DNA of 64,000 nt from Tridacna crocea (Eukaryota; Mollusca; Bivalvia; Cardiida; Cardiidae), in contig OX031060.1 in the NCBI GenBank assembly GCA_943736015.1, positions 1,818,001 through 1,882,000 of the forward strand, read 5' to 3'. How positions within the stretch are numbered: position 1 is the stretch's first letter; every line of letters starts with the position of its first letter. The notes under the pieces were generated by a model that did no database searches, had not been told where the DNA came from, and was given only the letters and a program-made list of their open reading frames with translations. The translations under genes and the position numbers were made by a program. Shown here piece after piece: positions 15,350-63,296 of the stretch.

Positions 15350-15578
15350 TTAACTCTTCACTAAACTACATGATTTTAGACTGGTCCAAATTGGAAGCAT
15401 TTGCAGACAACAAAATTAAGGTGACTCAAAAATTGAAATTTGCTTAGGGAAGGGTAGAAAGCATTGTGGGTAAAGGAGAAAATGCTGGTTACCAGCATTT
15501 TCTCCTTTACCCACAATGTTTTCATGTGGCTTCTTTCTCAGGGTCATGAAAACCCTGGATTGTGTGGTAAAAGGTTAA
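15350..15578 (+). mobile_element. PB-A MITE, intact
   Basis: TTAACTCTTCACTAAAC to GGTAAAAGGTTAA, with a perfect core GTGGGTAAAGGAGAAAATGC in which both arms carry the same GGGT change. Confidence 0.87.
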
Positions 15579-25964: not shown

Positions 25965-26440
25965 AAAGCCTGCTGTGGTAGGTCAGTGGTTAGCATATTT
26001 GACCCATGGCCCAATGGTTGCAAATTCGATACCTGGTTGAAGCAAATTTTCTTTTGGGCGATTTTGCGCTTCTCATGCATGATTCATGCGAGAAAAGTAA
26101 CCAGTGACTTGGAAAGAAAAATGTGTCAGTCCAGGTCTGAGAAAGCCTGGAAAGACATGGGACTAGGTGCACTGACCACTATGATGACCTAAGCTGTTTA
26201 ACCCTTTCCCAAACAACAAATTTTGGACTCTTCCAAACTGAAAGAGTTTGCAGACAACAATGTTAGATTTTGAGAAAATGGCAGCATGTTCTCAAAAAGG
26301 GTAGAAAACACTGTGGGAAAAGGAGAAATTGCTCGTAACGAGCAATTTCTCCTTTTCCCACAGTGTTTTCAAAAGACTTTTACTGCAGACATGTAAAAAC
26401 CAGGGCTTGTTTGGGAAAGGATTAAACCGTGTTAACTCCA
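25965..26440 (+). mobile_element. SINE interrupted by a PB-C MITE
   Basis: tRNA-like head GTAGGTCAGTGGTTAGC with GGTTGCAAATTCGATACCTG, body GCATGATTCATGCGAGAAAA, tail GATGACCTAAGCTG. The tail resumes after the MITE as ACCGTGTTAACTCCAATG, matching the SINE end GGCGTTAAACCCCAATAC. Confidence 0.75.
26198..26425 (+). mobile_element. PB-C MITE, reference copy
   Basis: TTAACCCTTTCCCAAACAAC to GTTTGGGAAAGGATTAA. Its long arm contains a small secondary palindrome, CTCTTCCAAACTGAAAGAG. The core is GGAGAAATTGCTCGTAACGA. It is inserted at the TTAA in a SINE tail. Confidence 0.88.
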
Positions 26441-30000: not shown

Positions 30001-30229
30001 TTAACTCTTTACCACACAATCCCTACTTTTGACGCCCCTGAGAAAGAAGCCTTTAGAAAACATTGTGGGAAAAGGAGAAAATGCTGGTAACCAGCATTTT
30101 CTCCTTTTCCCACAATGTTTTCTACCCTTAACAAAACAAATTTCAAATTTTCAGTCACTTTTATTTTGTTGTCTGCAAATGCTTTGAATTTGGATAAGTC
30201 AAAAATAGTGTCGTCTGGTAATGAGTTAA
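30001..30229 (-). mobile_element. PB-A MITE, reference copy
   Basis: Reference for PB-A. It is 229 bp from TTAACTCTTTACCACACAAT to GGTAATGAGTTAA. Order here: short arm with CTACTTTTGACGCCCCTGAG, core left arm GAAAACATTGTGGGAAAAGG and AGAAAATGCTGGT, centre A, perfect complement, then long arm with CAGTCACTTTTATTTTG and GTCTGCAAATGCTTTGAATT. TTAA targets and TTAACYC ends fit piggyBac MITEs. It has no ORF of its own; short ORFs across it are a reading artefact shared by all copies. Confidence 0.9.
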
Positions 30230-30380
30230 CTCTTTACCACACAATCTTTACTTTTGATGCCCCTGAGAAAGAAGCCTTTTGAAAACACTGTGGCAAAAGG
30301 AGAAAATGCTGGTAACCAGCATTTTTTCCTTTTCCCACAGTGTTTTCTACCCTTCCAAGAACAAATTTTAATTTTTCACG
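30226..30380 (-). mobile_element. PB-A MITE, long arm truncated
   Basis: Shares TTAA 30226. Hairpin arms both carry CACTGTGG / CCCACAGTG. Cut after TTTTAATTTTTCA by the next repeat. Confidence 0.82.
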
Positions 30381-30602
30381 CAAAGCGTTGTCTCGGATCA
30401 GCCTGAGCAGTCCGCACAGGCTAATACAAGACGGCACTTTACGACTGTATTAGATTTTGTGCTACAGTAGACTTGCGCACAACAGAAAAAAACATAAAGA
30501 TGGAAAGTGTCATTTCGGATTAGCCTGCGCGCACTGTGCAGGCTGATCCGAAACGATACTTTATGCAAATGTCCGAATGCCCCTTTTTGCATGTTACAGG
30601 CC
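30381..30602 (+). repeat. AGTCCGCACAGGCTAAT repeat
   Basis: GCGTTGTCTCGGATCAGCCT then AGTCCGCACAGGCTAATAC, and a near-inverted second half TTCGGATTAGCCTGCGCGCA then CTGTGCAGGCTGATCCGAAA. The two halves form a foldback. The core motif is one I know from bivalve genomes. Confidence 0.7.
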
Positions 30603-33141: not shown

Positions 33142-33370
33142 TTAACCTTCTACCACACAATCCTGACTTTTAATGACCCTAAGAAAGAAACCTTCTGAAA
33201 ACATTGTGGGAAAAGGAGAAAATGCTGGTAACCAGCATTTTCTCCTTTTCATACAATGTTCTCTTCCCTTCCCACTAGAAGTTTCAAATTTTCATTCACT
33301 TTTATTTTGTCATCTGCAAATGCTTTGAATTTGGACCAGTCTAAAGTTTTGTTGTTTGGTAAAGTGTTAA
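33142..33370 (-). mobile_element. PB-A MITE, intact
   Basis: TTAACCTTCTACC to GGTAAAGTGTTAA. Confidence 0.87.
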
Positions 33371-33394
33371 GACAATGAAATAAATAAAAAGACA

Positions 33395-33623
33395 TTAACT
33401 CGTTACCACTTGACAAAATTTTAGACTGATTCAAATTGAAAGCATTTGCAGACGTCAAAATAAAGGTAACTGAAAAATTGAAATTTGTTCTGGGAAGGGT
33501 AGAAGACACTGTGGGAAAAGGAGAAGATGCTGGTTACCAGCATTTTCTCCTTTTCCTACAGTGTTTTCAAAAGGCTTCTTTCTCAGGGGTGTCAAAAGTA
33601 GGGATTGTGTGGTAATGGGTTAA
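33395..33623 (+). mobile_element. PB-A MITE, intact
   Basis: TTAACTCGTTACCACTTGAC to GGTAATGGGTTAA. Hairpin with CACTGTGGG / CCTACAGTG in the two arms. Confidence 0.87.
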
Positions 33624-35302: not shown

Positions 35303-35529
35303 TTAACCCTGTACCACACAGTCTCGACCTTTAACGACTGGAAGAAAGAAGGCATTTAAAACATTGTAGGAAAAGGAGAAAATTCTGGATACCAGCATTC
35401 TCTCCTATTCCCAGAATATTTTCCACGGTATCATATACAAAATCCATCATTGAGTCAAATTTAAATTGGCTTCTGCAGATGTTTTCAATTTGGACAAGTC
35501 AAAATTTTTCTCGAATGGTAAGGGGTTAA
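35303..35529 (-). mobile_element. PB-A MITE, intact
   Basis: TTAACCCTGTACC to GGTAAGGGGTTAA. Loop CTGGATACCAG. Confidence 0.85.
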
Positions 35530-35754
35530 CCCTTTACCACACAAGAAAATTTTAGACTGGTCCAAATTAGAAGCATTTGCAGACGACAAAATCAAGGTGA
35601 GCGAAAAATCGAAATTTGGTTTGGAAAGGATAGAAAACACTGTGGGAAAAGGAGAAAATGCTGGTTACCAGCATTTTCTTTTTTTCCCACAGTGTTTTCA
35701 AAAGGCTTCTTTCTCAGGGTCATTAAAAGTCGGGATTGTGTGGTTAAGAGTTAA
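35526..35754 (+). mobile_element. PB-A MITE in head-to-head pair
   Basis: Shares TTAA 35526 and lies in opposite orientation to its neighbour. Both hairpin arms carry the ACACTGTGGG / CCCACAGTGT version. Confidence 0.87.
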
Positions 35755-35918: not shown

Positions 35919-36146
35919 TTAACTCTTTACTACACAATCCCGACTTTTAACGTCCCTGAGAAAGAAGCCTGTAGACAACTTTGTGGGAAAAGAAGAAAAA
36001 GCTGGTAACCAGCATTTTCTCCTTTTCCCACAATTTTTCTATCCTATCAAAGTCAAAAATCATTGTATTACCAAACTTTAATTTGTTGTCTGCAGATGCT
36101 TTGAATTTGGTCTAGTCCAAAAGTATGTTGTTTGCTAAAGGGTTAA
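35919..36146 (-). mobile_element. PB-A MITE, intact
   Basis: TTAACTCTTTACTACAC to GCTAAAGGGTTAA. Hairpin arms begin ACTTTGTGGG / CCCACAATTT. Confidence 0.85.
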
Positions 36147-36300
36147 CCCTTTACTCCATAAATACTCATTTCTGCATTGCGTGTAGGAGCCTTTGGAAAA
36201 CATTGTGGCAAAAGGTGAAATTGCTCGTGAGGAGCAATTTCACCTTTTGCCACAATGTTTTCTATGCTATCAAAAGGTGTCATATACGGTTAAGGGTTAA
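36143..36300 (+). mobile_element. PB-B MITE, deletion derivative
   Basis: Shares TTAA 36143. The core palindrome TCGTGAGGA-centred is intact, but the right arm jumps from GTCATATAC to GGTTAAGGGTTAA. Confidence 0.82.
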
Positions 36301-37589: not shown

Positions 37590-37704
37590 TGACCAGATTT
37601 CATTTTCTTGTTGGGCACCATTTTTCCTGTCCTTGTACAGGAAACTGCTCCTTCATGCATAGCTTTGTCCAGATTTAAATACAATACCTAACAACAGTTA
37701 CCTC

Positions 37705-38030
37705 ATTAGGAAGATAGCTCTATAGATCAGTGGTTATGATGTTGGTCTTTTAACCCATTACCACACAATCCCTGTTTTTGACGACCCTGAGAAAGAAGCA
37801 TTTAGAAAACATCGTGGGAAAAGGAGAAAATGCTGGTAACCAGCATTTTCTCCTTTTCCCACGATGTTTTCTACCCTTCACAAAACAAATTTCAAGTTTT
37901 GAGTTACGTGTATTTCGTCGTCTGCAAATGCTTTCTATTTGGACAAACCTAAAATTGTGTCGCTTGGTAAAGACTTAAACCTAAAAAAAAAAGGATCCTG
38001 TCCACATGGGTTCAAATCCCGCCAGATGCG
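37705..38030 (+). mobile_element. tRNA-like sequence split by a PB-A MITE
   Basis: GATAGCTCTATAGATCAGTG then GTTGGTCT, the MITE, then ACC, a run of A, GGATCCTGTCCACATGG and the B box GGTTCAAATCCCGCC. Removing the MITE leaves GGTCTTTTAAACC, a tRNA-Lys-like anticodon loop. An inserted A run makes this a SINE head or pseudogene, not a functional tRNA. Confidence 0.55.
37750..37978 (-). mobile_element. PB-A MITE with covarying hairpin
   Basis: TTAACCCATTACC to GGTAAAGACTTAA. Left arm CATCGTGGG and right arm CCCACGATG carry matching changes from the family ATTGTGGG. Confidence 0.88.
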
Positions 38031-38068
38031 GTTTGTATTTTAGCTATGTATTTATTGTGAACTTTCAA

Positions 38069-38280
38069 GTTCGTAAGACTCAGAGCCATCCCTGTTTACT
38101 TATCTGCAAATACCTTGAGTTAGGATGAGCCTGAACATCAAATTTGCCACCGGGTAAAGAGTTTAACTTTAAATTTGACCTTCAAGTTTGTAAGACTGAC
38201 CCATCCCTGTTTTCTTATCTGCAAATACCTTGAGTTGGGATGAGCCTGAACATCAAATTTGTCGTCAGGTAAAGAGTTAA
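38069..38280 (-). mobile_element. two tandem PB-A long-arm fragments
   Basis: CAAGTTCGTAAGACTCAGAG to GGTAAAGAGTTTAAC and CAAGTTTGTAAGACTGACCC to GGTAAAGAGTTAA are ~100-bp direct repeats derived from a PB long arm (TTATCTGCAAATACCTTGAG). The hairpin is gone. Confidence 0.65.
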
Positions 38281-38440
38281 AGTAATGAAGAATAATGAAG
38301 AGTTACAGCAAGAAAATAAAAACTTTATAACATCAGCTCTCCCTGCAGAATCAATAGCAGACTGTCATATTATGTCAGACTTGGTTATATTTTTTGTATA
38401 TCATTTTATGGTACCTCATATATTTGATGCTATAATATAA

Positions 38441-38605
38441 TAGAGGATATTTGTTTTTTTCGGTGAAAGTTCAAAATTTATTTCATAGAGTGAACACCAT
38501 CAGTAACTTTTTCACGAGTGGCTATGCCACTCATGAAAATATTACCAATGGTGATCACTCGTTGAAATAAATTTCGATTTTTCACTGAAAAAAACAAATA
38601 TTCTA
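38441..38605. mobile_element. foldback MITE with TAGA ends
   Basis: ATATTTGTTTTTTTCGGTGA faces TTTTTCACTGAAAAAAACAA then ATATTCTA. Second paired block CACCATCAGTAA / TTACCAATGGTG. The centre CACGAGTGGCTATGCCACTC is itself palindromic. Confidence 0.68.
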
Positions 38606-39018
38606 TTTATATCATGCTTTTAACCCTTTCTGGGAGGAGCTTTATCAAAATCCAGTACAGTTCTTTTCCGTAATTCCTCGTGGTGTACCCCTCCTGCATA
38701 GCAACGCATTACAATATTACGTCAAGTGCAAGAAATGTAAGGTGTATGACGTCATATTTCCCATCTGGTTGTGAGGCATGCGCATTTTACCTAGGCAACA
38801 AGAACGTGAAAATCGGTATTTACACTGGTGGTACCAGTGTAAGATCGAAAAATATATTCACTGCTATTTCTCGATATCCTACCGGAAAGCATGAAATAAT
38901 CTTTGATATTCCTGTTTGTTTGTTTTTTGCACACGATGAAAGTAAGCAATAATTTTTTTATATTGCCTGCTTTGATATAGCACTCATATCTTTTTCGTGT
39001 GTGGCTAAGAGTGGGACT
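38606..39018. other. unassigned, CRE/NRF1-like sites
   Basis: TTACGTCA (38719), ATGACGTCATA (38748) and GCATGCGCA (38777) cluster, followed by palindrome CACTGGTGGTACCAGTG. A 90-codon plus-strand ORF (38680-38952) begins in this block but has no family likeness. Promoter activity is only a possibility. Confidence 0.3.
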
Positions 39019-39247
39019 TTAACCCTTTACGGAACAATCCTGAATTTTAACGTCCCTTGGAAAGAAGCCTTTTGGAAACACTTTGGGAAAAGGAGAAAAT
39101 GCTGGTAACCAGCATTTTCTCCTTTTCCCACAATGTTTTCAACTCTATCATGGACAAATTCTACCATTTCAGCCACTTTTAATTTGTCATCTGCAAATGC
39201 TTTCAATTTGGACCAGTCTAAAATTTTGTTGTTTGGGAAAGAGTTAA
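39019..39247 (-). mobile_element. PB-A MITE, intact
   Basis: TTAACCCTTTACGGAAC to GGGAAAGAGTTAA. The left arm has ACTTTGGG where the right has CCCACAAT. Confidence 0.86.
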
Positions 39248-39249
39248 AG

Positions 39250-39705
39250 CCATTTTGTCAACAGATGAAAATAAGAATGGCTGCCATTAACGATGTATAC
39301 CACAAATTTTCTTACAGACAGATTTTTTTTTTAAAACTGCACATACAAAGCTCATCATGTTTCTAGGAGATTAAAAGATTATATGGGTTACCATGCTTGT
39401 CAGTGAGAAATTTGTCTTTATCTAAAAAGAGTACCCGATATAATTTCAGTTTCAAAATATCAGCTTATATTGGATCTAACTTCCCTTTCTTTAAGAATAA
39501 AAAATTCAATTCGTTTTGCAAAAAAAATTATAGAAGCCTGGTTTTGACCATGGTAAATGTACAAATATGCATGATCATAATATAGACCATTGAGTTAAAA
39601 GGAGGAAATGGTTTGACAGTTATTAATAGTCAATATTTAATAAATACATATGTTCAAATTGACTTACTTTTCTTAAAATTTCTACAGTTATAGTATTTAG
39701 AATTT
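39250..39705. other. no feature recognised
   Basis: AT-rich. Acceptor-like TTTCTTACAG (39326) and AAATTTCTACAG (39689) lack coding partners. Confidence 0.35.
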
Positions 39706-39794
39706 ACAAAGTGAATAAACTCTAAACTAGTAGGAATAGAGTTACAAGAGTTATCCTACTAGCTTAGAGTTTATTCACTTTGTAAATTTTAATT
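39706..39794. repeat. 39-bp-arm hairpin
   Basis: AATTTACAAAGTGAATAAAC then TCTAAACTAGTAGGA faces TCCTACTAGCTTAGAG then TTTATTCACTTTGTAAATTT. Nearly perfect arms with a short loop. Likely a small foldback element. Confidence 0.72.
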
Positions 39795-39799
39795 TTTTT

Positions 39800-40108
39800 T
39801 CAGGAGCATAACAGTTACTTATAATTGACACAGTCCTGTTCTGTGACATTTAGGCGCTTTGTGGGGGTGTACGACACTTTTGTGACAGTTCTAGTTTCAT
39901 TCATTCCTATTTATACTACATTGTGTTATGGAAAAAGAGGGCCTGATGACAAATATCTCAAACACTAAGTTTATAAATTTTTAATTTGTTTTTTTTATCA
40001 AACAATTTTGCCATTACTATAATAGTAATGTTTGATTTACAGATTGTTCACATTGACAGGACGTTTTACTCCACTGTTCAAAGAGTTATGCCCCTTCTTT
40101 AATTATTT
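39800..40108. other. repeat remnant
   Basis: CAAAGAGTTATGCCCCTTCT is a phrase often seen in the TTTTTAGCTCACC repeat family. Otherwise nothing. Confidence 0.3.
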
Positions 40109-41080
40109 GAATATTGGCAAGGAAGCTTCGCGGTAAATATAAATTGATTTCGGCATACCTTCCTGTGAGAAGATATCGATTCCGTACAGAAATGTATTTA
40201 TCCTTGGACTGTCCGCGGAATTCTTGCTAGCATACTTAGGATTGTCTGCGTAAACAATCCGGAATAGGTCCGAAAGTTCAGGCGTGAAAGCGGATCGTTT
40301 CAGGACAACGCGGACACCTTTAGGATTACACCAGGAAACGTTTGGGACAACCAATTTCAGTGCACAACACTAGGCGGAGACGGTATGGAAATGCAGAAGT
40401 TGCATTCATAGTTTATGTTTGAGCGTTTGGATCTCTTGTTCCACAGACTGACATCGACAAATTTGCAGTGTAACGTCGCTCTAGACAAACAAGGATTAAA
40501 ATTACCACAAACTTCTAGTCGACTGTTTTTTCCCATGATCGACTTTTTTTTTCTTTTTTGTATCGGCATATTGTGTGCAGGAGAGATTAAAAACACATCC
40601 ACCCTGGTGGAAGTCAAACTGCAAGTGACAGAGCAATGATTTTGATATGTTAAAGGAGTAGGTTGCCTAGATACATTTTCCATTCATTGTTCAGAGAGCA
40701 TACCGCGACTGCTCTGGACGTTCAGGAAAGGTTCCGCGAACCTTCTGTATAGATTCCTCCTAGTGTCCGCAAGCTGTCCGCGTCGCTGAAGCTTTCTGGA
40801 ATATATGCGGAAGACTCGGGATGTTCTGACGATGTCCTGACGACGTTCTGACGACAACGCGGACAAGATGCCGAAGGTGTAAGGAAATTCATTTCCTCGT
40901 CCAAATTTTGCTCTTGATCAAAATTTCGACGCGGACAAAATTGCCAATCCGGAAGCTCCGAATCAGGCTGAAGCATCTAGGACAACAATAAGAAGCCATC
41001 AGGAACATGCGGAAGCTTTGCCGAATATCAAATTTGTTGTCCGCATGCTATCCGCGTATTGTCCTGGCCCTAGTGTACGC
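40109..41080. repeat. GC-rich unit with GTCCGCG/TTCTGACGAC motifs
   Basis: Dense GTCCGCG, ACGCGGAC and the triple GATGTCCTGACGACGTTCTG. It ends where a PB-A MITE is cut at 41081. Probably a non-autonomous DNA transposon similar in style to 11541-12613, but ends and TSD were not found. Confidence 0.4.
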
Positions 41081-41277
41081 TTGCCCAAATTGAAAGCATT
41101 TGCAGACGACAAAATAAAAGTGACTGAAAATTTGAAATTTGTTTTGTGTAGGGTAGAAAACATTGTGGGAAATGGAGTTAATATTGGTTACCAGCATTTT
41201 CTCCTTTTCCCACAATGTTTTCCAAAGGCTTTTTTCTCAGGGGTGTCAAAAATAGGGATTGTGTGGTAATGGGTTAA
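41081..41277 (+). mobile_element. PB-A MITE, 5'-truncated
   Basis: Starts within the long arm at TTGCCCAAATTGAAAGC. The left hairpin arm is decayed (AATGGAGTTAATATTGGTTA). Confidence 0.78.
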
Positions 41278-41486
41278 GCCTAAAACTATGTTGCATTTAG
41301 AATGTGTTTGCCTGCTGAATAATGTATGGCATGATTTTAGTATAATGAGCTTTATTTGCACCACAGGGACCTATCTGGAAAAAAGGTTAGGTAATTGTAT
41401 ATTGTTTTACATAATAGATCATCTGTACAGAATATCCTCTATTAACTGGAAGAACTGACTGAGGATATTCTTGATTCTTTACTTAT
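41278..41486. other. no feature recognised
   Basis: Short unique stretch. Confidence 0.3.
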
Positions 41487-41838
41487 TAAAGGTGGCCCTT
41501 TAGTTCTTGGGACAAAAATTTTACAAAAAATGCAAAGAAAATCATCCTTATATTCCCAAAGCCTTTTAATTTGCATTCATAAAACCCCCCCGTAGTCGAA
41601 AACCATCCAACAACACAAGAAATTAGAGATTTACTACAGCCAAGGTTGACACCAACGGGGGACACGTTCTATTTTTAGATGATCAGTTCTCTCATTTACA
41701 TACAGGAATACACAGAACTGATGAAGTTTCAAACATAGCGTCTGAAGAAGACATTATGGAAAATAATTATTACATGATTTTAATATGTAATGGAATTTAA
41801 GCGTTATTAGTCATGTGCCAGTCACTTGACATTCCCAT
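41487..41838 (+). repeat. 350-bp dispersed repeat, second copy
   Basis: AAAGGTGGCCCTTTAGTTCT to GCCAGTCACTTGACATTCCC, direct-orientation partner of 32366-32712. Confidence 0.72.
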
Positions 41839-42048
41839 AATGCTTTATTGATTTTTGGCGCGAAATCTAAAAATAGCTTAAGAGGCTATGTAGCCTGTTA
41901 AGGGAACACCATAAAAAAAATTTTTTTTGTAATTTTATGAGTCTTAATTATTGATGACTTGTATTATTTTTCATATAAATTTCAGTGATATATATATATA
42001 TATTTTAATTTGGTGAGATGTAAAAATTCTAAATACCCACCTTTAACC

Positions 42049-42260
42049 TAGTTTCTACCACACAATCAAGAGTTTCAACAATACCAATGAAAAGAACTAA
42101 TTATATCATTGCGAGTAAAGGAGATGCTAGTTACCAGTACTTTCCTTTTCCCACAATGCTCTCAAAGACAAATTTCATAACTTATGCAACATTTAAGATA
42201 TTTTCTGCAAATCCTTTAGATCTGGACCACTCTACAATTCAGTTGTCTGATAAAGAGTAA
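42049..42260 (-). mobile_element. PB-A MITE, degenerate
   Basis: TTTCTACCACACAATC, GGAGATGCTAGTTACCAGTA, TTTCTGCAAATCC and TGATAAAGAGTAAAC remain. Confidence 0.58.
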
Positions 42261-42274
42261 ACTGTAACATGACA

Positions 42275-42450
42275 TGTGAATTTGGCTCTATAAGCTGAGT
42301 GCATTATTCTATGTAGAGTGACGTCATGCCATATAAAGTGACATCATTCTGTATAAAGTAAGTTATGGAATATAATCTCCATCCGTGTTTTCACTCTAAG
42401 TATGAATTTGTTTTCCTCTGATTAAGAGTTGGTCATGTTAAAATTAAAAG
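42275..42450 (+). repeat. dispersed repeat, second copy
   Basis: Partner of 1905-2123, with GTAGAGTGACGTCATGCC and a second GTGACATCAT. Confidence 0.5.
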
Positions 42451-42595
42451 GATAATCTGCGGAATACTGATATAAGAAACTGAAGGCAAGCATGGATAGG
42501 TGCACTTGCCACTGCGATATAACTGAAATAATGTGGAAATGGGGTAGAAATTAAATAACTTAAAAGTTTTGTCAAAGATTCCATGCTGGCAAGAT

Positions 42596-42824
42596 TTAAC
42601 TCTTGACCAACAGTCAAAATTGTGCTCTTGTCCAAATTGAAACCATTTGCGGATGACAAAATAAGTGTGACTCAAAAATTGAAATTTGATTTTGGAAGGG
42701 TAGAAAAAACTGTGGAAAAAGGAGAACATGCTGTTTACCAGCATTTTCTCCTTTTCCTACTATATTTTCAAAAGCTTTCTTTTTCAGGGTCGCTAAAAGT
42801 TAGGATTGTGTGGTAAAGAGTTAA
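42596..42824 (+). mobile_element. PB-A MITE, intact
   Basis: TTAACTCTTGACCAACAG to GGTAAAGAGTTAA. Loop CTGTTTACCAG. Confidence 0.85.
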
Positions 42825-43049
42825 CCCTTTACTCCACAGATACTCATTTCTACGCATTACTTGTAGAAGCCTTTGGAAAACATCTTGGCAAAAGGTGAAA
42901 TTGCTCGTCACGAGCAATTTCACCTTTTCCCAAGATGTTTTCTATGCTATCAAAAGGTGTCAGATACACGTAAAAAATGGCTTTATCCTTGCTGTTATTT
43001 TGGGTCTATTAGAGATACCATAGAAATGCCTTATGGGGTAAAGGGTTAA
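42821..43049 (+). mobile_element. PB-B MITE with covarying hairpin
   Basis: Shares TTAA 42821. Left arm CATCTTGGC and right arm CCAAGATG carry matching changes from CATTGTGGC / CACAATG. Loop CTCGTCACGAG. Confidence 0.88.
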
Positions 43050-43429
43050 ACCATAATTGTAATTGCAAAAGGTAGCAATATGCGATATTTAACTTTGTGA
43101 CTTTTTAATTGTGCTTTGGACTTTTTAAACCGTTTTCCGATAAAAAGTGTTATATTTCACATGTATATATATTATTTTATCAATATTTTGAACATCAATG
43201 GAATACAAATGAATTACAATTAAGGCAAATTGTATCAAAGCTTGTTAATGTTCCAGCTGATTTTTAACCTGCAACTAGCGCTGCAATTTTAGACATACTA
43301 AGTGTATACCATTTAGATCTCTCAAACATGAATCAGTGAGTTGTTGCTGTGGTACACCCAAAAAATTGATGAAAGCAGCTGTATACAATAAGACCAGTAA
43401 ATATTTCATTGAAACCTCCCCCTGCGAAA
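43050..43429. other. no feature recognised
   Basis: AT-rich, no borders found. Confidence 0.35.
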
Positions 43430-43745
43430 TTTTTAAGAGCAGTTCAAGAAAAATTATTTCACAGTTCAAGAACAGTGTTCAAGAACTAGACATGAACTGC
43501 TCTTAAAGTGTTCAAGAACAGTTCAAGTACATTCTAAGAAATGTTAAATTGGACAAATTTTAAGAACAAGTATTCTTGAAAAGTTCTTAAAGACTGTTCT
43601 TGAACAGTTCAAGAATGAAGTTCTTACACTGTTCAAGAACGAATGTTCTTGAACCGTTTTAAGAATTTTTGTTCTTGAACTGTTTTTGAACTATTCAAGA
43701 ACAGCTTTTAAGAACTTTTCAAGAATACTTGTTCTTACTGTAAGA
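43430..43745. mobile_element. GTTCTTGAAC foldback cluster
   Basis: At least 15 copies of TTCAAGAAC or GTTCTTGAA in 310 bp. The block 43560-43735 is itself an inverted repeat: AAGAACAAGTATTCTTGAAA at the left faces its complement ending at 43735. The result is palindromes nested within a palindrome. Confidence 0.65.
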
Positions 43746-43904
43746 AGGGAACAATATATTCCAATTTCTGATGAGCCCCAAAGCTCTATAGTAGGCAATA
43801 CTAAGTAATCAGCGGTAATTTATGTTCACAATTTATAATGTAGACAGACAGGAGACATTAGGTAGTCCAGCCTACATTTCCCTAATGGTTCCTGCTTATC
43901 GCTT

Positions 43905-44112
43905 ATCTAGACACCACAATGTTGGATTTGTCCTTGACTAATGCATATGCAGATAATGCAATACTTGTAGGTCAAATGTTTGAGTTTGTATTTAACATGT
44001 CAGAAGGCATTTGGGAAAAGGAGAAAATGCTGCACCATCATTTTCTCCTAATAAATTCCCAGTGCTGTCTTCTTCTGAGATATGAATACATGGGATATTT
44101 GGTGAAAGGTTA
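43905..44112 (+). mobile_element. PB-A MITE, degenerate
   Basis: GATTTGTCCTTGACTAATGC (long arm) and GGGAAAAGGAGAAAATGCTG then CACCATCATTTTCTCCT. Ends GGTGAAAGGTTATG. Confidence 0.6.
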
Positions 44113-44221
44113 TGATGGTATTTGTATAAGGTCTGCTGTCTGGTTGTCAATAAATTGCTACTGATAATTGTCCATGAAAGATGTTGTTGACAGTCTGCTT
44201 AAGTCAGAAGTTTTGTTTGTC

Positions 44222-44655
44222 AGACCGGGGTCCTTATAATTATACCAACCATTCTTAAGAACGTTCTTGGTCTTTTTTCTTCAAGATTTTCTGACTGTGA
44301 AAGTAACAAAACTTCTGATTGGCAAAACCAAATGGTTTAGCCAATCAGAAGTTCTGTTACTTTCACATTGAGAAAATTCTGAAGAATTAACCCATTACCA
44401 CACAATACCTACTTTTGACGCCCCTGAGAAAGAAGCTTTTTGAAAACACTGTAGGAAAAGGAGAAAATGCTGGTAACCAGCATTTTCTCCCTTTACCACT
44501 GTGTTTTCTACCCTTGCCAGAACAAATTTCAATTTTTCAGTCACTTTTATTTTGTCATCTGCAAATGCTTTCAATTTGAACCAGTCTAAAACTTTGTTGT
44601 TTGGTAATGAGTTAAGACAAACATTCTAAAGAATCAGGTTGGTGAATATAGTAAT
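44222..44655. mobile_element. FB1 foldback split by a PB-A MITE
   Basis: TTATACCAACCATTCTTAAG, stem GGCAAAACCAAATGGTTTAG, then CTGAAGAA-TTAA, MITE, TTAA-GACAAACATTC to GGTTGGTGAATATA. The rejoined junction matches other FB1 copies (GAAGAACAAGACAAAAG). Confidence 0.8.
44387..44615 (-). mobile_element. PB-A MITE nested in FB1
   Basis: TTAACCCATTACC to GGTAATGAGTTAA, 229 bp, with TTAA duplicated on both sides. Confidence 0.88.
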
Positions 44656-44829
44656 TTTCTTTGCCAGAATATGTTAGGAACATGGTAGAACAGTGTAGTA
44701 TCAAAACGAGACTGCTCAGAGCTGAGTCTAATCGTAGATCTACAGTACTAGTAAATATTTCTGAAGGAAACAAGCATGAAAATAGAAATAGAAATATGGG
44801 TTCTTGGTAATAGCTAGCCTGGCTTTCAG

Positions 44830-44860
44830 GCCCTGCATTTAAGTCATTTTAATAAACAAG
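44830..44860 (+). CDS. candidate host exon 14
   Basis: Acceptor CTAGCCTGGCTTTCAG and donor CAAG/GTACAC. Phase 0+10+1 reads ALHLSHFNKQ. Leftover G plus AA of exon 15 gives Glu. Short, so modest support. Confidence 0.3.
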
Positions 44861-45250
44861 GTACACAACTACATCAACTCACAGAAATATGTGTTGTTAC
44901 TTGCCCTTCTTCTGAAATACAGACATCAGAACATTGAGAACACAGAGATTTCATTTTGCAGTTTTACTTGATGATTTTGTTTTAATGAAAAGGCTCTATT
45001 TAACGGACTGACACCAGTCTACGTTTCCATGACAGGTACATGTATGCAATATAATGTACCAAAAGGTTTCCAAAAGAAAAGAATAACGATTGAAGCTTTT
45101 GGCTTGTTTGAAACCATCTTATAGGATTGAACTTTTGAATACAATGGTTCAAAGTTCCTGTACGAAGTATTATAAAAGATCAATGGAGCACATTGTCACA
45201 ACATTAAATTTTAGATTACTAAAGTCAAGTTATTGTTTTCACTTATCATA
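44861..45250. other. no feature recognised
   Basis: Unique sequence, no repeat border seen. Confidence 0.35.
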
Positions 45251-45477
45251 TTAACCCTTTCCCAAACAAGCCCTGGTTTTTACATGTCTGCAGTAAAAGT
45301 CTTTTGAAAACACTGTGAGAAAAGGAGAAATTGCTCGTAACGAGCAATTTCTCCTTTTCCTACAGTGTTTTGTACCCTTTTTGAGAACTTTCTGGCATTT
45401 TCTCCAAATCTTAAATTGTTGTCTGCAAACTCTTTTGGTTTGGAAGAGTCCAAATTTGTTCTTTGGGAAAGGGTTAA
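45251..45477 (-). mobile_element. PB-C MITE, intact
   Basis: TTAACCCTTTCCCAAACAAG to TTTGGGAAAGGGTTAA. Core GTGAGAAAAGGAGAAATTGC with TCGTAACGA loop. Confidence 0.88.
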
Positions 45478-45569
45478 GTTTCTCCTAATAAAATCACCCT
45501 CCCAGGCATTAGCTAAGGTCCTCCCACGAAAACAACTTGAATTATGATAACCTTGTATTCATTAGTTGA

Positions 45570-45804
45570 TTAACTCATTATCACACTATCCTTACTTTTG
45601 ATGACCCCCAAGAAAAAAAAAACCCCTTAGAAAACACTGTGGGAAAAGGAGAAAATGCTGGTAACCAGCATTTTCTCCTTTCTCCACAATGTTTTCTACC
45701 CTTCACAAAACAAATTTCAAATTTTCAGTCCCTTTTTATTTTGTCATCTGCAAATGCTTTTGATTTGGACAAGCCTGAATTATTGTTGTTTGGTAATGAG
45801 TTGA
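45570..45804 (-). mobile_element. PB-A MITE
   Basis: TTAACTCATTATC to GGTAATGAGTTGA. An A-run expansion (AAGAAAAAAAAAACCCC) sits in the short arm. Confidence 0.84.
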
Positions 45805-46130
45805 AATGACAATATTTGAAGAATTTAATGAATATTTCGACTTTAACATTTCTTCTTCACAATCACTAAAACTCAAAGAACCACAAAACTGGCCAGACTT
45901 TTGGCTTTGCATAATTGGGTACCAAATAATAGCCTCCCTATCTGTGAATGTTTTCAAAAATTTTTTCCCTTGGACATAAGGTTGATCCTGAAGGCGCCTT
46001 TCATGATTATAGTTACCCTTGAATATAGCGTAGATCAAGATCAGGCTGCACAAAATACCCTGCCTGATCTTTGATCTAAAATGTCAGCTTTACTGAAACA
46101 CTGCAGACAAAAGTATCTATGGACTTGCAA
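45805..46130. other. unassigned with an FB3 copy
   Basis: 45996-46082 holds GCGTAGATCAAGATCAGGCT and CCTGATCTTTGATC, a diverged FB3 hairpin. The rest is unassigned. Confidence 0.4.
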
Positions 46131-46405
46131 TTAACCCTTTACCAAACAACAGAATTCTAGACTTGATCAAATAGTATTCACAGACGACAAAATAAATGGG
46201 ACTCAAAAATTGAAATTTGTTTTGCGAAGGGCAGAAAATATTGTGGGAAAAGGAGAAAATGCTGATGACCAGCATTTTCTCCTTTTCCTAGAATGTTTTC
46301 TACCCTGCTGGAAATTTCAATTTTTGAATTACGTTTATTTTGTTGTCTGCAAGTGCTTTCAATTTGGATCTGAATTAAATTGTGTAGTTTAGTAAAGACC
46401 TGATG
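46131..46405. mobile_element. chimeric PB-A MITE with two long arms
   Basis: Left half is a normal long arm (GACGACAAAATAAATGGGAC). The right half is also a long arm inverted (GTTGTCTGCAAGTGCTTTC), so the element is a palindrome over most of its length. Right terminus is degraded (TAGTAAAGACCTG). Confidence 0.75.
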
Positions 46406-46589
46406 AAACCAGTATATCCCTTTTACTTTAGGTGGAGGGATGTTACAGAAATCTAAATAGGTTCTTCAATACATCTCGGCCAAAACAGTCCTTTTAATGT
46501 ATACATGCAATGATTTGTTACAGTCTACCATCTACCAATTGGAAAGGCCATTTTCATTTAATTATATCCAGTGACCTATGAATAAGAGA

Positions 46590-46822
46590 TGGTTATTCTG
46601 GTTTCACTATGTCCATGGGGTTATCCTGGTTTCACCATGTCCATTGGGTTATCCTGGTTTCACTATGTCCAATGGGTTATCCTGGTTTCACTATGTCCAT
46701 GGGGTATCCTGGTTTCACTATGTCCATTTGGCTATTCTGGTTTCACTATGTCCATCGGGTTATCCTGGTTTCACTATGTTCTTCGGGTTATTCTGGTTTC
46801 ACTATGTCCATCCGTCTGTCTA
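46590..46822 (+). repeat. 28-bp minisatellite
   Basis: About 8 units of TTATCCTGGTTTCACTATGT then CCATGGGG. Period 28 leaves all three plus frames open, making overlapping GYPGFTMSM-type ORFs with no sign of being genes. Confidence 0.88.
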
Positions 46823-47090
46823 GACTTTTTAATCAATTCAATGCTCTAACTCAATATATCTTTGACTTAGAACCCTGAAACTTTCTATAAGACGTTGCCA
46901 ATGATCCAAGGAGCTACTGTATAGTTTTTGGGTCACATTGGTCAAAGGTCAAGGTCACTGGTGATGTTTCTTTTGAGAATCATTCCCTTTTCTCTGATTT
47001 TACTGCTTCAATGACAAGGTGCCGTTGTCTGCTCATGTCATATTCTTCAAAGATTCAACCTGTCTTATAGCCCTGAAAGCGGGCAGACTG
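46823..47090 (+). repeat. dispersed-repeat tail
   Basis: GTCCATCCGTCTGTC, then TTTTTGGGTCACATTGGTCA then AAGGTCAAGGTCACTGGTGA, phrases typical of the interior of TTTTTAGCTCACC elements. Confidence 0.45.
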
Positions 47091-47734
47091 TAATATTACG
47101 CTCAAAAAGTAGTAATGTAGAAAATAGCTTTTATCAATATGTTTGAGGAGAAATGAGACCTGCTTTAGCTCCAGATTTCTCTAAACTGCTGATCATAGCT
47201 GAGTGAATTGCACGAGGTAGCGTTTTATTGAGTAAACGTTTATTTTACTTTGAAATTCAAAGTAACGGTTGTTGCGTAGGAAAGTGGTTCGGTTTTGTAC
47301 CCAGGATACCCAAATTAGATAGATGAGTATTTATAGAATACCATCTAGCGGGAGATAATAGATAAGGTGCTAGTGGGGAGCATTTGTGCACTATGGGACA
47401 GTTCTAAAGTCTATAGAATGATTTGGTTTGAAAAGCTGTATGAAGGGTTATAACTATGTAATGATTTATTTGCACTATCTGACTGGTCGACCATTTTTCT
47501 AGATGTCTGCCCCACTAACAGGAATTTTATGGGACTACTAAAGTATGATTGCCCCCATTTCTAGAAATAAAATATTACAAAATGATGCAGTTGAGATAAT
47601 TGGCTATGTCATTTTTAACCCTAGACTTTTTTCTGGATGATATAATCCTTATCTTGTCTATATTTCATACATTTTCAAATAACATATTGTTGCAAAAGTT
47701 CAAGGATTAGTTGTTACAGGGTCGAAAACATTGT
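47091..47734. other. mostly unassigned
   Basis: AGAATACCATCTAGCGGGAG then ATAATAG at 47337 repeats the opening of this window (AGAATGCCATCTAGGGGGAG). Nothing else recognised. Confidence 0.35.
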
Positions 47735-47955
47735 CTAACTCTTTACCAAATGACAAAGTTTCATACTCGTTCAAATTCAAAGCATCTGTAGATGGTAAAA
47801 TAAATGTGGCTCAAAAACTAAAATATGGTTATGGAAGGGTAGAAAACATTGTGGGAAAAGGAGAAAATGCTTGTAACCAGCATTTTCTCCTTTTCTCACA
47901 GAGTTTTCAAAAGCTTTTTGTTTGAAGATTAGAAGTCTGGATTATGTGGTCAACC
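47735..47955 (+). mobile_element. PB-A MITE
   Basis: CTAACTCTTTACCAAATGAC to GATTATGTGGTCAA. Preceded by GGGTCGAAAACATTGT, a scrap of another PB hairpin edge. Confidence 0.76.
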
Positions 47956-47961
47956 CCTAGA

Positions 47962-48229
47962 GCCCGCCCGGGTGGCTCAATGGTGAGCGTTTCAGACTTA
48001 TAACCTGGTGGTTGTGAGTTCAATACCCAGTTGAGGCAAACTTTCTTTCCAGCATATTTTCGCCTCTCACCTCTGCTGAAGCATGTGAGAAAAGTAGTCT
48101 GTAGCTTTGGAAAGAAAGTTTTGTTAGTACTGGTTGAGAAAGCCAGGAAACATGTGCGTCACCGGCAGCCATGATAATTATGACCTTAGCTGTTAAAGTG
48201 GCGTTAAACGGCAATACAACCAACCAACC
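47962..48229 (+). mobile_element. tRNA-derived SINE, full length
   Basis: GCCCGGGTGGCTCAATGGTG (A box region), TGGTTGTGAGTTCAATACCC (B box), body CACCTCTGCTGAAGCATGTG, tail TTAAAGTGGCGTTAAACGGC then AATACAACCAACCAACC. It is the same family as 13370 and useful as its consensus. Confidence 0.85.
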
Positions 48230-48404
48230 AGTATACCCTTAAAGTGTACCAAGTGCCATCTTGCTTTGGCAGACATTGAGAGAACAGAGAGATCTCTGAC
48301 CTTCAATCTGTTCTGACAAATATTCTGTGAGATATTTTTATGCAAAACAGCCTCCTTTGTCTGGAATCTTGTAACTGGCGGAATAGTTTTGTCTTCATTT
48401 ACTC

Positions 48405-48556
48405 CTTTAACAATTTACAATTCAAAACTAGCATTTCTCCTTTTCCTACAATGTTTTCTACCCTTTGAAAGACAGAATTCAAAATTTGAACTACATTGTC
48501 TGCACCTGCTTTCATTGTAGATCAGTCTAAGATTTTATCGTCTGTTATAGAGTTAA
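48405..48556 (-). mobile_element. PB-A MITE, 5'-truncated
   Basis: Only the right hairpin arm (AGCATTTCTCCTTTTCCTAC) and the long arm to TTAA 48553 survive. Confidence 0.7.
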
Positions 48557-48782
48557 CTCCTAACCAAATAGCTGCTGGTTTTCACGACCCTGGGAAAGAC
48601 CACTTTTGAAATCATTGTTGGAAAAGGAGAAAATGCTGGTAACCAGCACTTTCTCCTTTTCCAACAATGATTTCTCTTCTATCAGAGAGATTTAAAGCTT
48701 GTTAATGTAACAATGTTAAATTTGTTATCTGCTGATATTTTGAATTTGAAAGGTCTAAATTTGTTGTTTGGGAAAGAGTCAA
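48553..48782 (-). mobile_element. PB-A MITE with covarying hairpin
   Basis: Shares TTAA 48553, ends GGGAAAGAGTCAA. Arms read GAAATCATTGTTGGAAAAGG and CCTTTTCCAACAATGATTTC, both differing from the family in matching positions. Confidence 0.85.
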
Positions 48783-53463: not shown

Positions 53464-54552
53464 CTATTTTAGAACTGCACTTGCAAAGGATAACTGTTCA
53501 CTACTCACAGTCTGTCTATGGTAGAACTTTCTGAAATTTTTGTCTGAAGACCAGTCTGCAGTAGACAGTATATTACTCAAAGAGCATCCCTTCCGAAATG
53601 CAGCAGAAACAGAAGCACTGCGAAAAGAATGAGCTTTGAAAATTGATGTATCAATTCCTGACAGATCTAAAACACATCTAAGCCATCTGGCTATAGTACT
53701 CGTACTAACTGCTTTGTAAGTCTTATAGGACACAAGCAAGAAGTTACTTTGTCTTGAACATTTGGTTCTTCTCAAATAATGAACTAATGTATGAAAAGCA
53801 CACAAGCTCTCATCCCTGAAATGTTCTACTTTGAAAACATATGTATGTCCATTTCTTGAGGATTTCAATCGATTTGGAAAAGTGAAAGTCATAATATTCT
53901 GTGTTTTACACAAGTAATCTAAATGCAAATTGGCCAAAGTCTGCGCTCTAGGGGCTGAAGCTAAAGCTAAAAGAGCAACCAGTTTATATGTAAGTTGTTT
54001 CAGGGACAAATTTTGCAAAGGATACAAATCTGAAAGGTACTTTAACACAGATGTAACATCCCACGTGAACTGATATCGAGGCAGAGGTGGTTTTTGAAAG
54101 AAAACTCCTTTCATAAATCTAGTTATAAGAACACAGTCCTTACACCATGTATTACCAAGCAGAGGTAATGTTTGTAACAGCATAGCCTTATGACTATTAA
54201 TACATGAGTATGATTTACCTGATTTTAGCAGAAAAAACAAGAACTGAATTACTTTAACCTCAGTCGTGTGAAACAGATCTCCTGCCCTGAGAGAGTTCCA
54301 AAGACACCATTTTCGCCAAGCCAAGTTGTACTGTTTTTGGGTACCTTTGCTCCATGAACTGGTAATAATTCCTGTAATTTCTTCCTGAAGGCCTGTCTTA
54401 TGTAACTCCTGCCTGATACAACTACAGCGATCATCTGGATGGAATTGTGAAGAGGATGTATTTGACCGTTGTGTGGCAATACTAGAAGATCTTTGTGCCT
54501 TGGTAACCTGGTAGGAAAAGAGCAAATATTCTCTAATACAAGAGGAAACCAT
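53464..54552 (-). CDS. DIRS ORF3: tyrosine recombinase
   Basis: 362 codons from ATG at 54552. This is the integrase equivalent of DIRS elements, inserting a circular DNA copy. Catalytic landmarks are all visible: Arg in SAPRAQTL (about 53940-53960), HxxR in AHSFRSAS (about 53620-53635), and the nucleophile Tyr in FRKFYHR (codon 53521-53523). The N-terminal part has SKGTQKQYNLAWRKWCLW, the usual SAM-like/core-binding start. It overlaps the end of ORF2 by 304 nt in the -1 frame relative to ORF2. No internal stops. Confidence 0.88.
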   Translation of the reverse strand: MVSSCIREYLLFSYQVTKAQRSSSIATQRSNTSSSQFHPDDRCSCIRQELHKTGLQEEITGIITSSWSKGTQKQYNLAWRKWCLWNSLRAGDLFHTTEVKVIQFLFFLLKSGKSYSCINSHKAMLLQTLPLLGNTWCKDCVLITRFMKGVFFQKPPLPRYQFTWDVTSVLKYLSDLYPLQNLSLKQLTYKLVALLALASAPRAQTLANLHLDYLCKTQNIMTFTFPNRLKSSRNGHTYVFKVEHFRDESLCAFHTLVHYLRRTKCSRQSNFLLVSYKTYKAVSTSTIARWLRCVLDLSGIDTSIFKAHSFRSASVSAAFRKGCSLSNILSTADWSSDKNFRKFYHRQTVSSEQLSFASAVLK

Positions 54553-56387
54553 GCCTGTGCTTTCCAGAAAGGGAATACCAGAATAGCTCTCTCAACCTGA
54601 TCCTGCAGAATTTTATTCATGATACGACTTATCAAATTAAAAGGAGGAAAAATGTACGGACTAAGATCAGCCCAGGTTAAGGTAAAGGCATTATAATGCA
54701 TAGCACCAGGCTCAGGGAACCAAGAAACAAAACTGTTCAAGCGAGTATTTAGCCTTGAGGCAAACAAATCAATGTCTGGTTGAAAGAAATGAATACAGAG
54801 TCTATCAAAAATATCCTGTTTCAGCATCCACTCTGTGGAATCAGAAAACTTCCTAGAAAGGGAATCTGCAGAGTTCTCTTTACGGGCTATATAAACAGCA
54901 GAAATAAAAATATGTCTCTCTACACACCAATTCCACAGATTCCCCGCAAGCAGGTCAAGGCTTTGAGAACACATTCCTCCCATATCATTCACATATGTCA
55001 CAGCACAAACATTATTAGACTGAATTTCTATGTGAACATTACTGCATTTGGAATAAAACGCTTGTACTGCATGAAAAATGGCTAGCAACTCTAAGAAATT
55101 GATGTTTTCATTGGCCTCTAACAAATTCCACCTTCCCTGTGCACATAGCTCAGTTTCTAAATTGATTGCCCCCCAACCGGCAAAGCTAGCATCAGTTCTA
55201 CACCTATAGTCAACCTCTCTTGGACGTATATGTTTTCCATTTTTCTGATAAACATTTTCTTGCCACCAATGCAATTCTGCAAGGCTATGATCAGATAACA
55301 CAACCTCATTTTCAAAATTACCATCTGATCCTAAGCCATAAAGTTTATTTCTTTCCAGTGCTCTGTAATGAAGAGGCGCTTCAAGGATAGCATTAAATGC
55401 ACTAACAACAAGACCAATGAAAGAAGCGAGCTCTCTGACTGTTACCTTTGCAGCCTCAATTAGCATTTTTGCCTTAGTGACAATCTTCAGAATCTTCTCA
55501 TCAGTTAGAAAGACCATAAATTTTATGGAATCAATGACAAAACCAAAAAATGTAATTCTCCGAGTAGGAATTAACACGGATTTCTTGACATTTATAGAAT
55601 AACCTAGATCTTGCAAAGTGACTACTATTGTTCTAGTGTTATTTTTGCAGATAAGCTCATCTGAGTTCATGTTTAAAGAGTCATCTATATAGTAACTACA
55701 ACGTATGTTTTGTTGTCTAAACCAGGCATAAACAGGCTTGAGAATTTTGGTAAAGACATATGGAGATGATTTTAAACCAAAGGGAAGGCAAACAAACTTA
55801 TAAAGTTTCCCTTTCCATGAAAACTTGAGAAATTTTTGGTAATTTTCATGAACTGGTACAGAGAAATAGGCATCACTCAAATCAATTGACGTGAAATAAT
55901 CATTTTCTTGTATCAGATCCAGAACAACTTTGAAAGTCTCCTGTTTGAAGTGATCATAGTGGACAAACTGATTTAAATATCTCAAATTAATAACCGGTCT
56001 GAACTTTCCATTCTTTTTGGGTACTATAAATAAAGTAGATATGAACTCGCCATCCTCAGATTCTGAAGGAACAATTGCTCCTTTAGACAGCAATTCCTGA
56101 ACTTCGTTATCTACCAAAAGGAACTGGTCCCCACTAAATGGGATTTCATTAGGTACTTTGTACTGACAAGGGAGACTATCGAAATGAATTTTATAACCAG
56201 AAATAGTTTCTAATACCCATGAGTCATTGGTAATCTGATGCCATTTCTCTGTATGTTTTTTAAGTTTTCCAACATTTGAGTAAGTGATACTTACATTTGA
56301 TTGTATATCTACTCGTTTGGGGAGGTCTGTGTGGCTGTTGGGGACTTTTTTGGTATTCGAAAGTTTTTTGAACCCCTTTGTTGACCT
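54249..56387 (-). CDS. DIRS ORF2: RT, RNase H, methyltransferase-like
   Basis: Open frame of 712 codons with no ATG before the RT, so translation probably enters by -1 frameshift from ORF1. The lead section KWHQITNDSWVLETISGY is typical of DIRS. RT: NGKFRPVINLRYLN, SIDLSDAYFSVPV, VCLPFGLKSSPYVF and the YIDD catalytic box near 55680-55692. RNase H: RTDASFAGWGA, FLELLA and ARKENSADSLSR, but QSNN where the usual motif has an Asp. C-terminal region with DLFASRLN and YIFPPFNLI resembles the Dam-like methyltransferase region described in DIRS elements. Start and end overlap ORF1 and ORF3. Confidence 0.88.
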   Translation of the reverse strand, partial: RSTKGFKKLSNTKKVPNSHTDLPKRVDIQSNVSITYSNVGKLKKHTEKWHQITNDSWVLETISGYKIHFDSLPCQYKVPNEIPFSGDQFLLVDNEVQELLSKGAIVPSESEDGEFISTLFIVPKKNGKFRPVINLRYLNQFVHYDHFKQETFKVVLDLIQENDYFTSIDLSDAYFSVPVHENYQKFLKFSWKGKLYKFVCLPFGLKSSPYVFTKILKPVYAWFRQQNIRCSYYIDDSLNMNSDELICKNNTRTIVVTLQDLGYSINVKKSVLIPTRRITFFGFVIDSIKFMVFLTDEKILKIVTKAKMLIEAAKVTVRELASFIGLVVSAFNAILEAPLHYRALERNKLYGLGSDGNFENEVVLSDHSLAELHWWQENVYQKNGKHIRPREVDYRCRTDASFAGWGAINLETELCAQGRWNLLEANENINFLELLAIFHAVQAFYSKCSNVHIEIQSNNVCAVTYVNDMGGMCSQSLDLLAGNLWNWCVERHIFISAVYIARKENSADSLSRKFSDSTEWMLKQDIFDRLCIHFFQPDIDLFASRLNTRLNSFVSWFPEPGAMHYNAFTLTWADLSPYIFPPFNLISRIMNKILQDQVERAILVFPFWKAQAWFPLVLENICSFPTRLPRHKDLLVLPHNGQIHPLHNSIQMIAVVVSGRSYIRQAFRKKLQELLPVHGAKVPKNSTTWLGENGVFGTLSGQEICFTRLRLK

Positions 56388-57574: not shown

Positions 57575-57711
57575 TATGTAGTACAATATAGTCTCTGAAT
57601 ACTGAGGACAGCGTCCACAGAAGCCTCTACGTCGAGCACTTACCTCGAAAAAAAAAAAATAATAGACGAAGCGCGACAATTTTCGATGTTCACAGGTCGC
57701 ACGCCAGAACG

Positions 57712-60070: not shown

Positions 60071-60300
60071 TTAACCCTTTATGGCACAATCAGGACTTTT
60101 TATGACCCTGAGAAAGAAGCCTGTTGAAAACAATGTGGGATTAAGAGAAAGTTCTGGTAACCATAATTTTCTCCTTTTCCCCACAATGTTTTCTACCCTC
60201 TCCAAAACAAATTTCAGAATTTTAGTCACATTTATTTTTGCGTTGTCAGATGCTTTAAATTAGGACCAGTCCAAAATTATGTCATTTGGTAAAGAGTTAA
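60071..60300 (-). mobile_element. PB-A MITE
   Basis: TTAACCCTTTATGGCAC to GGTAAAGAGTTAA. Hairpin eroded in both arms (GGGATTAAGAGAAAGTTCTG). Confidence 0.8.
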
Positions 60301-63067: not shown

Positions 63068-63296
63068 TTAACCCATTACCACACAATCCCTACTTTTGAC
63101 GCCCCTGAGAAAGAAGCCTTTTGAAAACACTGTTGGAAAAGGAGAAAATGCTGGTAACCAGCATTTTCTCCTTTTCCCACAGTGTTTTCTACCCATCCCA
63201 GAACAAATTTCAACTTTTCAGTCACCTTTATTTTGTCTTCTGCAAATGCTTTCAATTTGAACCAGTCTAAAATTTTGTCGTGTGGTAAAGAGTTAA
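63068..63296 (-). mobile_element. PB-A MITE, intact
   Basis: TTAACCCATTACC to GGTAAAGAGTTAA. Arms with ACACTGTTGG / CCCACAGTGT. Confidence 0.88.

Follow-up and report, generated by a model that had tools for sequence, protein, structure and literature searches.

The window analysed here is a stretch of 64,000 nucleotides from the bivalve Tridacna crocea (contig OX031060.1, positions 1,818,001 to 1,882,000), in which a sequence-only reading had noticed hairpins whose arms seemed to change together from copy to copy. These hairpins correspond to the central palindrome, 71 bp long, of a TTAA-flanked repeat of 229 bp, one copy of which occupies window positions 37750-37978. The palindrome consists of two 35-bp arms around a single nucleotide (element positions 54-124), and lies 53 bp from one end of the element and 105 bp from the other. 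Our data show that inserted copies of this palindrome decay one arm at a time, whereas its symmetry appears to have been held in the lineages that spread.

Both ends carried TTAA in 130 of 150 full-length copies, as a TTAA target site would give. An empty site was found at locus L004, where a copy of a dispersed repeat (2114-2224) aligns without gaps, at 84.7% identity and over a single TTAA, with the flanks of the element copy at 1423-1651. Many of the 683 junction-spanning matches, among those listed, are adjacent element copies and not empty sites. The two element ends form an imperfect inverted repeat that aligns by eye over about 15 bp, where terminal inverted repeats (TIRs) of 12-19 bp are expected for a piggyBac-type or other TTAA miniature inverted-repeat transposable element (MITE). 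Because of the TTAA target and this imperfect terminal repeat, the element probably belongs, by its sequence features, with the non-autonomous piggyBac-type MITEs. TTAA targets are also used by Kolobok and Sola3 elements. Excerpts of PMC2872659 give CC[C/T]T as the piggyBac-type terminal motif; the left end here reads CCCA or CCCT, 58% of 231 copies having T at position 8, but the right end reads CTC[A/T] and deviates from the motif, which weighs against the assignment. Inverted repeats account for most of the length of a foldback element, whereas here the palindrome takes 71 of 229 bp.

Abundance and samples

The window holds 89 copies or fragments, which take up 27% of its bases. Seventeen 10-kb regions, one per contig at the 20-Mb mark, contained 180 copies or fragments (18% of 170 kb), and scaling these to 1.05 Gb projects to about a million in the genome. 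Exact matches to the 71-mer consensus number 4,657 plus 4,713 in the genome, and the unchanged 35-bp core is found at 173,858 places.

The similarity profile was built from 134 full-length copies, with window duplicates and chosen copies included. Loci L001 and L010, which lie within the window, were dropped from most counts. The central copies of L002-L037, having been picked by similarity, were dropped from the 297-copy pair counts and from the divergence, closest-pair, genotype, tree and centre-age analyses, and retained in flank clustering and in the neighbour analysis of copies with a central T. L059-L077 were used only for comparing the flanks of copies with C.G at offset 10 or A.T at offset 14. 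Offsets give the distance of a pair from the palindrome centre. Data specific to offsets 2, 6, 10, 12 and 14 were counted by eye on the first 100 of thousands of rows, ordered by place on contig C1, and the genome figures derived from them are projections.

Mirrored and one-sided changes

The claim that each change is mirrored in the other arm does not agree with the counts. Across 297 copies with at least 28 pairs, we found 1,597 one-sided pair changes (120 at offset 34) against 205 mirrored ones, together with 119 double changes that did not match; independent arms would give 67 mirrored and 86 unmatched doubles. A set of 132 copies with at least 25 pairs, taken from the window and eight 10-kb regions, gave 671 one-sided (54 at offset 34), 73 mirrored and 43 unmatched double changes, where 24 and 32 doubles were expected. 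Chance alone does not suffice as the source of mirrored pairs (205 against 67 and 73 against 24). Mirrored changes are above chance yet a minority, and their excess is focused on few pairs: 125 of the 205 fall at five family-diagnostic pairs, at offsets 26, 20, 13, 8 and 3. Offset 22 is asymmetric, the left arm alone being changed in 60 of 290 copies and the right alone in 32, a hot spot that is unexplained.

Symmetry between families

Such a focus could come from shared ancestry alone, if a few ancestral subfamilies differed by chance at mirrored pairs and symmetry was never maintained; this was the outcome that the sequence-only reading had named as its own refutation. Much of the mirrored excess does trace to subfamilies, and changes after insertion appear independent, both as ancestry would have it. 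However, six pairs (26, 20, 13, 8, 3 and 10) have changed in mirrored fashion at family or subfamily level.

Grouping by palindrome state gave, beside the main family, subfamily 1b (C.G at 26, 17 copies) and groups CGATC (7 copies), TGATC (3) and TCTTC (6). Matching at the chosen pairs is partly built into these groups, since they were chosen by palindrome state; copies mismatched at a diagnostic pair were marked x and left outside (for TCTTC, two TCTxx and two TCTTx). The TCTTC group has its own left flank and shows 4 mirrored and 0 unmatched changes, and two of the three TGATC copies have flanks about 50% different from the main family. Clustering on the flanks, without regard to the palindrome, gave family 2, whose 10 copies have consensus flanks that differ by 31%; it shows 3 mirrored (26, 8 and 3) and 0 unmatched consensus changes in 33 pairs. 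Consensus palindromes of families whose flanks differ by 30-50% differ by mirrored pairs, with one doubtful unmatched exception. In a tree built from the flanks of 232 copies, which is weak at about 156 columns, the mirrored change at offset 26 falls on a branch of 23 tips (subfamily 1b) and again on a branch of 10. Pair 26 is mirrored on two flank backgrounds. Both of its states occur with either state of pairs 8 and 3, and therefore it changed more than once or was exchanged.

Offset 10 gave 11 mirrored places and 1 unmatched place beside 76 one-sided rows, the doubles being mostly a C.G group. From 10 places (20 of 100 listed rows, of 2,788 matches), about 280 C.G copies are projected, against about 1 expected from independent arms. 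Eight of ten fetched C.G copies share flank changes, as expected from common descent.

Several observations weigh against maintained symmetry. Among five other flank clusters, with consensus 12-25% from the main family, two have no palindrome change, but one has an ambiguous base at offset 25, another has two ambiguous palindrome positions, and a 4-copy cluster combines an unmatched consensus change at offset 28 with two ambiguous positions. The remaining two of the ten C.G copies (L060 and L068) have unlike flanks. In addition, C-only states are commoner at offset 10 than elsewhere (33 C, 14 G and 29 T in the 76 one-sided rows), and an unmatched C-only state may itself have been amplified there. 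Nevertheless, because six pairs changed in mirrored fashion at family or subfamily level beside one doubtful unmatched consensus change, symmetry appears to have been held in spreading lineages.

Divergence, compared without consensus CpG sites, gives further information. The ratio of palindrome to flank divergence was 1.45 for copy pairs below 0.05, 0.82 at 0.05-0.10, 0.60 at 0.10-0.15, and 0.48-0.55 beyond. Between families the interior is also better conserved than what surrounds it, taken as whole flanks with the TIRs not separated. Because palindrome and flanks diverge alike in the closest pairs, and in more distant pairs the palindrome changes at about half the pace of the flanks, the data fit constraint on source elements only, with inserted copies free. 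This slower divergence between distant copies argues, together with the mirrored changes on two backgrounds at offset 26, against shared ancestry alone, which we regard as very unlikely.

Changes after insertion

A different possibility is arm-to-arm correction, in which template switching in a hairpin copies one arm onto the other and so produces a mirrored change in one step, with no selection. In 60 closest copy pairs (flank distance <0.06), 224 palindrome differences were one-sided, 0 mirrored and 11 double and unmatched. The next bin (0.06-0.10, 384 pairs) already holds 68 mirrored beside 1,472 one-sided and 49 unmatched differences, a point on the other side; pairs in these bins have copies in common and are not independent.

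The sequence-only reading had proposed counting compensated against uncompensated changes on a tree of the flanking sequence. In our flank tree, the 7,590 cells of internal branches contain 7 mirrored doubles and 2 unmatched ones; shifted pairs give 16 in 54,280, so that about 2 would be expected. The tips carry 887 one-sided breaks, 41 mirrored changes and 37 unmatched doubles, and their both-arm rate of 1.04% (78/7,526) is close to the 0.88% (483/54,752) of shifted pairs. On the other side, the tips lean slightly to mirrored changes, and one-sided breaks also fall on internal branches, 94 in number, of which 11 are on branches leading to at least 5 tips.

At offsets 2, 6, 12 and 14 taken together, one arm alone had changed in 347 rows, and doubles stood at 27 places, 17 of them mirrored and 10 unmatched. 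With the unmatched doubles as a control for mixed age, the one-sided base spectra predict 13.5 mirrored among the 27 doubles, against 17 observed, and offset 2 alone gave 1 mirrored and 4 unmatched. Mirrored and unmatched doubles alike are more frequent than the product of one-sided frequencies would give, which copies of differing age would cause; mirrored doubles surpass it somewhat more at offsets 14, 12 and 6, in line with correction, but not at 2. At offset 14 the projection is about 1,990 mirrored and 880 unmatched, against about 190 and 185 expected, and nine fetched A.T copies form no flank group (pairwise 0.13-0.45). Hence general arm correction after insertion finds no support as the main cause, in view of the absence of mirrored differences in the closest pairs, of 17 against 13.5 and of 1.04% against 0.88%. 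Correction may still account for a few percent of the changes that follow insertion.

The centre base

Excerpts of PMC8604942 and PMC8794818 describe template switching by which spacers are inverted and arms homogenised; it would also flip the single base between the arms. We read this base from the right flank in an exact, oriented 54-base context and found A at 32,288 and T at 2,842 of 35,130 places (8.1% T). Among 70 fetched copies with flank divergence below 12%, the centre was A in 61, T in 8 and G in 1, while A-to-T rates at other A sites are 2.4-2.8%. Copies with a central T are not grouped by their flanks, with 10 T among 150 nearest neighbours where shuffling gave a mean of 17. Inversion of the centre is the simplest reading of these flips, and suggests rare strand switching.

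The centre may, however, simply be variable. Its T share does not rise with age (1/19 and 3/38 in middle bins, 14/104 in the two oldest), some flank A sites have higher T shares, which come from subfamily differences, and among the first 100 places of the unoriented core, 5 had G or C as the centre base. If about 6% of young copies were inverted, about 1-3% of changes would be mirrored, which agrees with the 17 against 13.5 above. Inversion at that rate would not suffice by itself for the family pattern, as flips would be too few to erase the single changes, roughly 20, that flank rates would put between families. Arm-to-arm correction as the explanation of mirrored pairs is in our judgement unlikely.

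Copies in the window

The arm variants quoted in the sequence-only reading are all five present, although the copies cited at 15350, 42821 and 48553 also hold arm mismatches, one of which, in the copy at 42821-42955, falls in the CATCTTGGC stretch quoted there, with C in both arms. The ACACTGTGGG/CCCACAGTGT variant is real and is a subfamily state: 35 of 287 copies have C.G at offset 26. The 71-mer at 37803-37873 has 7 exact copies in the genome; the flanks of three (L009, L011 and L012) are close, with 1-8 differences in 156, and those of the other four are not (18-36 differences). The mismatch counts in the table take in offset 34, a position at which the family consensus is likewise unpaired.

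Table. Element copies and palindromes in the window
Position	Strand	Feature	Basis
37750..37978	+	Full-length MITE copy, TTAA to TTAA, 229 bp, inside a dispersed repeat	Ends read
37803..37873	.	Central palindrome, 35-bp arms round 1 nt, arms 100% complementary; mirrored T.A -> C.G at offset 25	
42821..42955	+	TCTTC-related copy; mirrored at offsets 3, 8, 13, 24, 25; arms mismatched at 2 pairs, including offset 20	
48553..48781	+	Copy mirrored at offsets 22 and 29; arms mismatched at 3 pairs	
15350..15578	-	Copy with A.T -> T.A mirrored at offset 19; arms mismatched at 3 of 35 pairs	
42596..42824	-	Copy with 8 arm mismatches and zero mirrored changes	
26198..26425	-	Family 2 (CGATC) copy; mirrored 26, 8, 3	
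36143..36275	+	TCTTC-family copy; mirrored 20, 13, 8, 3	
63068..63296	+	Subfamily 1b (CGAAG) copy; mirrored 26	
30001..30229	+	Full-length copy with perfect consensus palindrome (30054-30124); right TTAA common with next copy	

Copies lie side by side at 30001-30382, 35303-35754, 33142-33623 and 60071-60477, some with a common TTAA and some as inverted pairs. The copy at 37750 is embedded in a repeat (window 37650-38060; also in L003, L004, L005 and L007) with a tRNA-like stretch that looks B-box-like; ARAGORN found no tRNA gene in the window. Further genome places match over the same junction, and this MITE and its host repeat are perhaps a composite element.

Half-element matches breaking near the palindrome centre are also present, 20 right halves and 12 left halves among 469 matches (for example at window 48426-48556 and in L053, L038, L034, L029 and L043), although two of the left halves are cut by the end of a fetched piece and some right halves adjoin other MITE pieces. 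By element position, 21 matches start in 80-99, against 6 in 60-79 and 7 in 100-119. These half copies suggest breakage or deletion of one arm at the palindrome centre. That they are longer elements with separated arms was rejected, as no left and right halves paired on the same strand by eye. Other palindromic repeats, with arms unlike those of the MITE, lie at 26940-27015, 44277-44386, 27616-27708 and 38444-38604. On the minus strand at 53464-57679, a reverse transcriptase (RVT_1, 4.7e-25) stands beside a weak match to Phage_integrase, a tyrosine recombinase domain (25 bits, below the cut-off of 27.1); this is presumably a DIRS-type retroelement.

A proposed symmetric site needed for mobility

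The sequence-only reading had left the choice between correction of the arms from each other and selected pairing. Symmetry apparently held in spreading lineages is in keeping with these proposals, but general correction of inserted copies was not seen. On balance we think that the palindrome is a functional two-fold-symmetric site of a non-autonomous, probably piggyBac-type MITE, required while the element is mobile. Selection on transposition would keep the arms alike if one protein reads both, most likely a piggyBac-like transposase acting through paired C-terminal domains; alternatively, the symmetric site might be used as a DNA hairpin or cruciform. A mirrored change would spread once the second arm had followed the first, by a second mutation or by rare strand switching, before the lineage amplified. 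After insertion selection would be gone, and strand switching would be so rare that at most a few percent of changes became mirrored.

A transposase site is favoured because piggyBac ends hold palindromes that are bound by paired C-terminal transposase domains (excerpts of PMC11707139), and because the interior of a piggyBac-related coral MITE is more conserved than its ends, for which its authors suggest a role in transposition (excerpts of PMC2872659). The T. crocea genome gave 118 piggyBac-domain matches, some in genes with open frames. However, the only piggyBac element with both ends located (L057/L058) diverges from the MITE after TTAACCC, and a palindrome was not seen in it, which counts against this reading. 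The element (G000 C3, about 66850925-66853689) has a 624-amino-acid open frame, ends TTAACCCTTTATATAC and a MITE copy just outside; as a candidate autonomous partner it does not match. Element ends were not found in the piggyBac flanks read at L055/L056.

Alternatively, the palindrome could be kept as a nucleic-acid hairpin, either cruciform DNA or the stem of a transcript, and not as a site for a dimer. Mirrored changes alter the sequence yet preserve pairing, and when six window palindromes were folded as single-stranded DNA, five reached -33 to -40 kcal/mol (z -13.7 to -16.5), the decayed sixth giving -16.8 (z -6.6). On the other hand, Rfam families had zero window matches at gathering thresholds, and between flank clusters the sequence is conserved, not pairing only. 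We consider upkeep as a hairpin somewhat unlikely.

Relation to known systems

The closest precedent is provided by the CMITEs of Acropora corals, by their description in PMC2872659. Like the present element, CMITEs are small, TTAA-flanked and piggyBac-related, occur as tandem copies, and have a 75-base interior that is more conserved between families than the TIRs. They are about 100 bp long with about 1,600 copies in A. millepora, whereas the element described here is 229 bp long and is projected to number about a million, fragments included. The sections of that paper used here mention neither a palindrome nor compensated changes.

Excerpts of PMC11707139 show that piggyBac and piggyBat share the TTAA target, and that piggyBac carries 19-bp palindromic sequences that are identical to each other and lie asymmetrically with respect to its tips. 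With a length of only 14-19 bp and a place close to the tips, these palindromes, which are in part imperfect, contrast with the single internal palindrome of 71 bp. Template-switch or quasipalindrome mutation, according to excerpts of PMC8794818, PMC3820800 and PMC8604942, predicts arm homogenisation and spacer inversion. The excess of central T resembles the latter, but arm homogenisation here makes up at most a few percent of changes. Angel and other MITE-like elements are also palindromic, and a hairpin role has been ascribed to them. Among the papers listed by our literature searches, we found no description of the present element; subscription journals were mostly outside the search, so one could have been missed.

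Meaning

The palindrome might even be an active amplification device, with a hairpin or strand-switching step in transposition or gap repair that copies arm onto arm and drives the spread to about a million copies. We give this little credence; if it were true, mirrored family changes and centre flips would be footprints of the amplification mechanism.

The 173,858 identical cores within one genome separate two processes that are usually confounded, namely how symmetry is kept up in lineages that spread and how copies mutate once they are dead. The family thereby bounds the rate at which a 71-bp palindrome is rewritten in vivo, and provides a countable signal of centre flips. Moreover, some piggyBac MITEs have a conserved interior that is unexplained; our results suggest that it is a site recognised through its symmetry.

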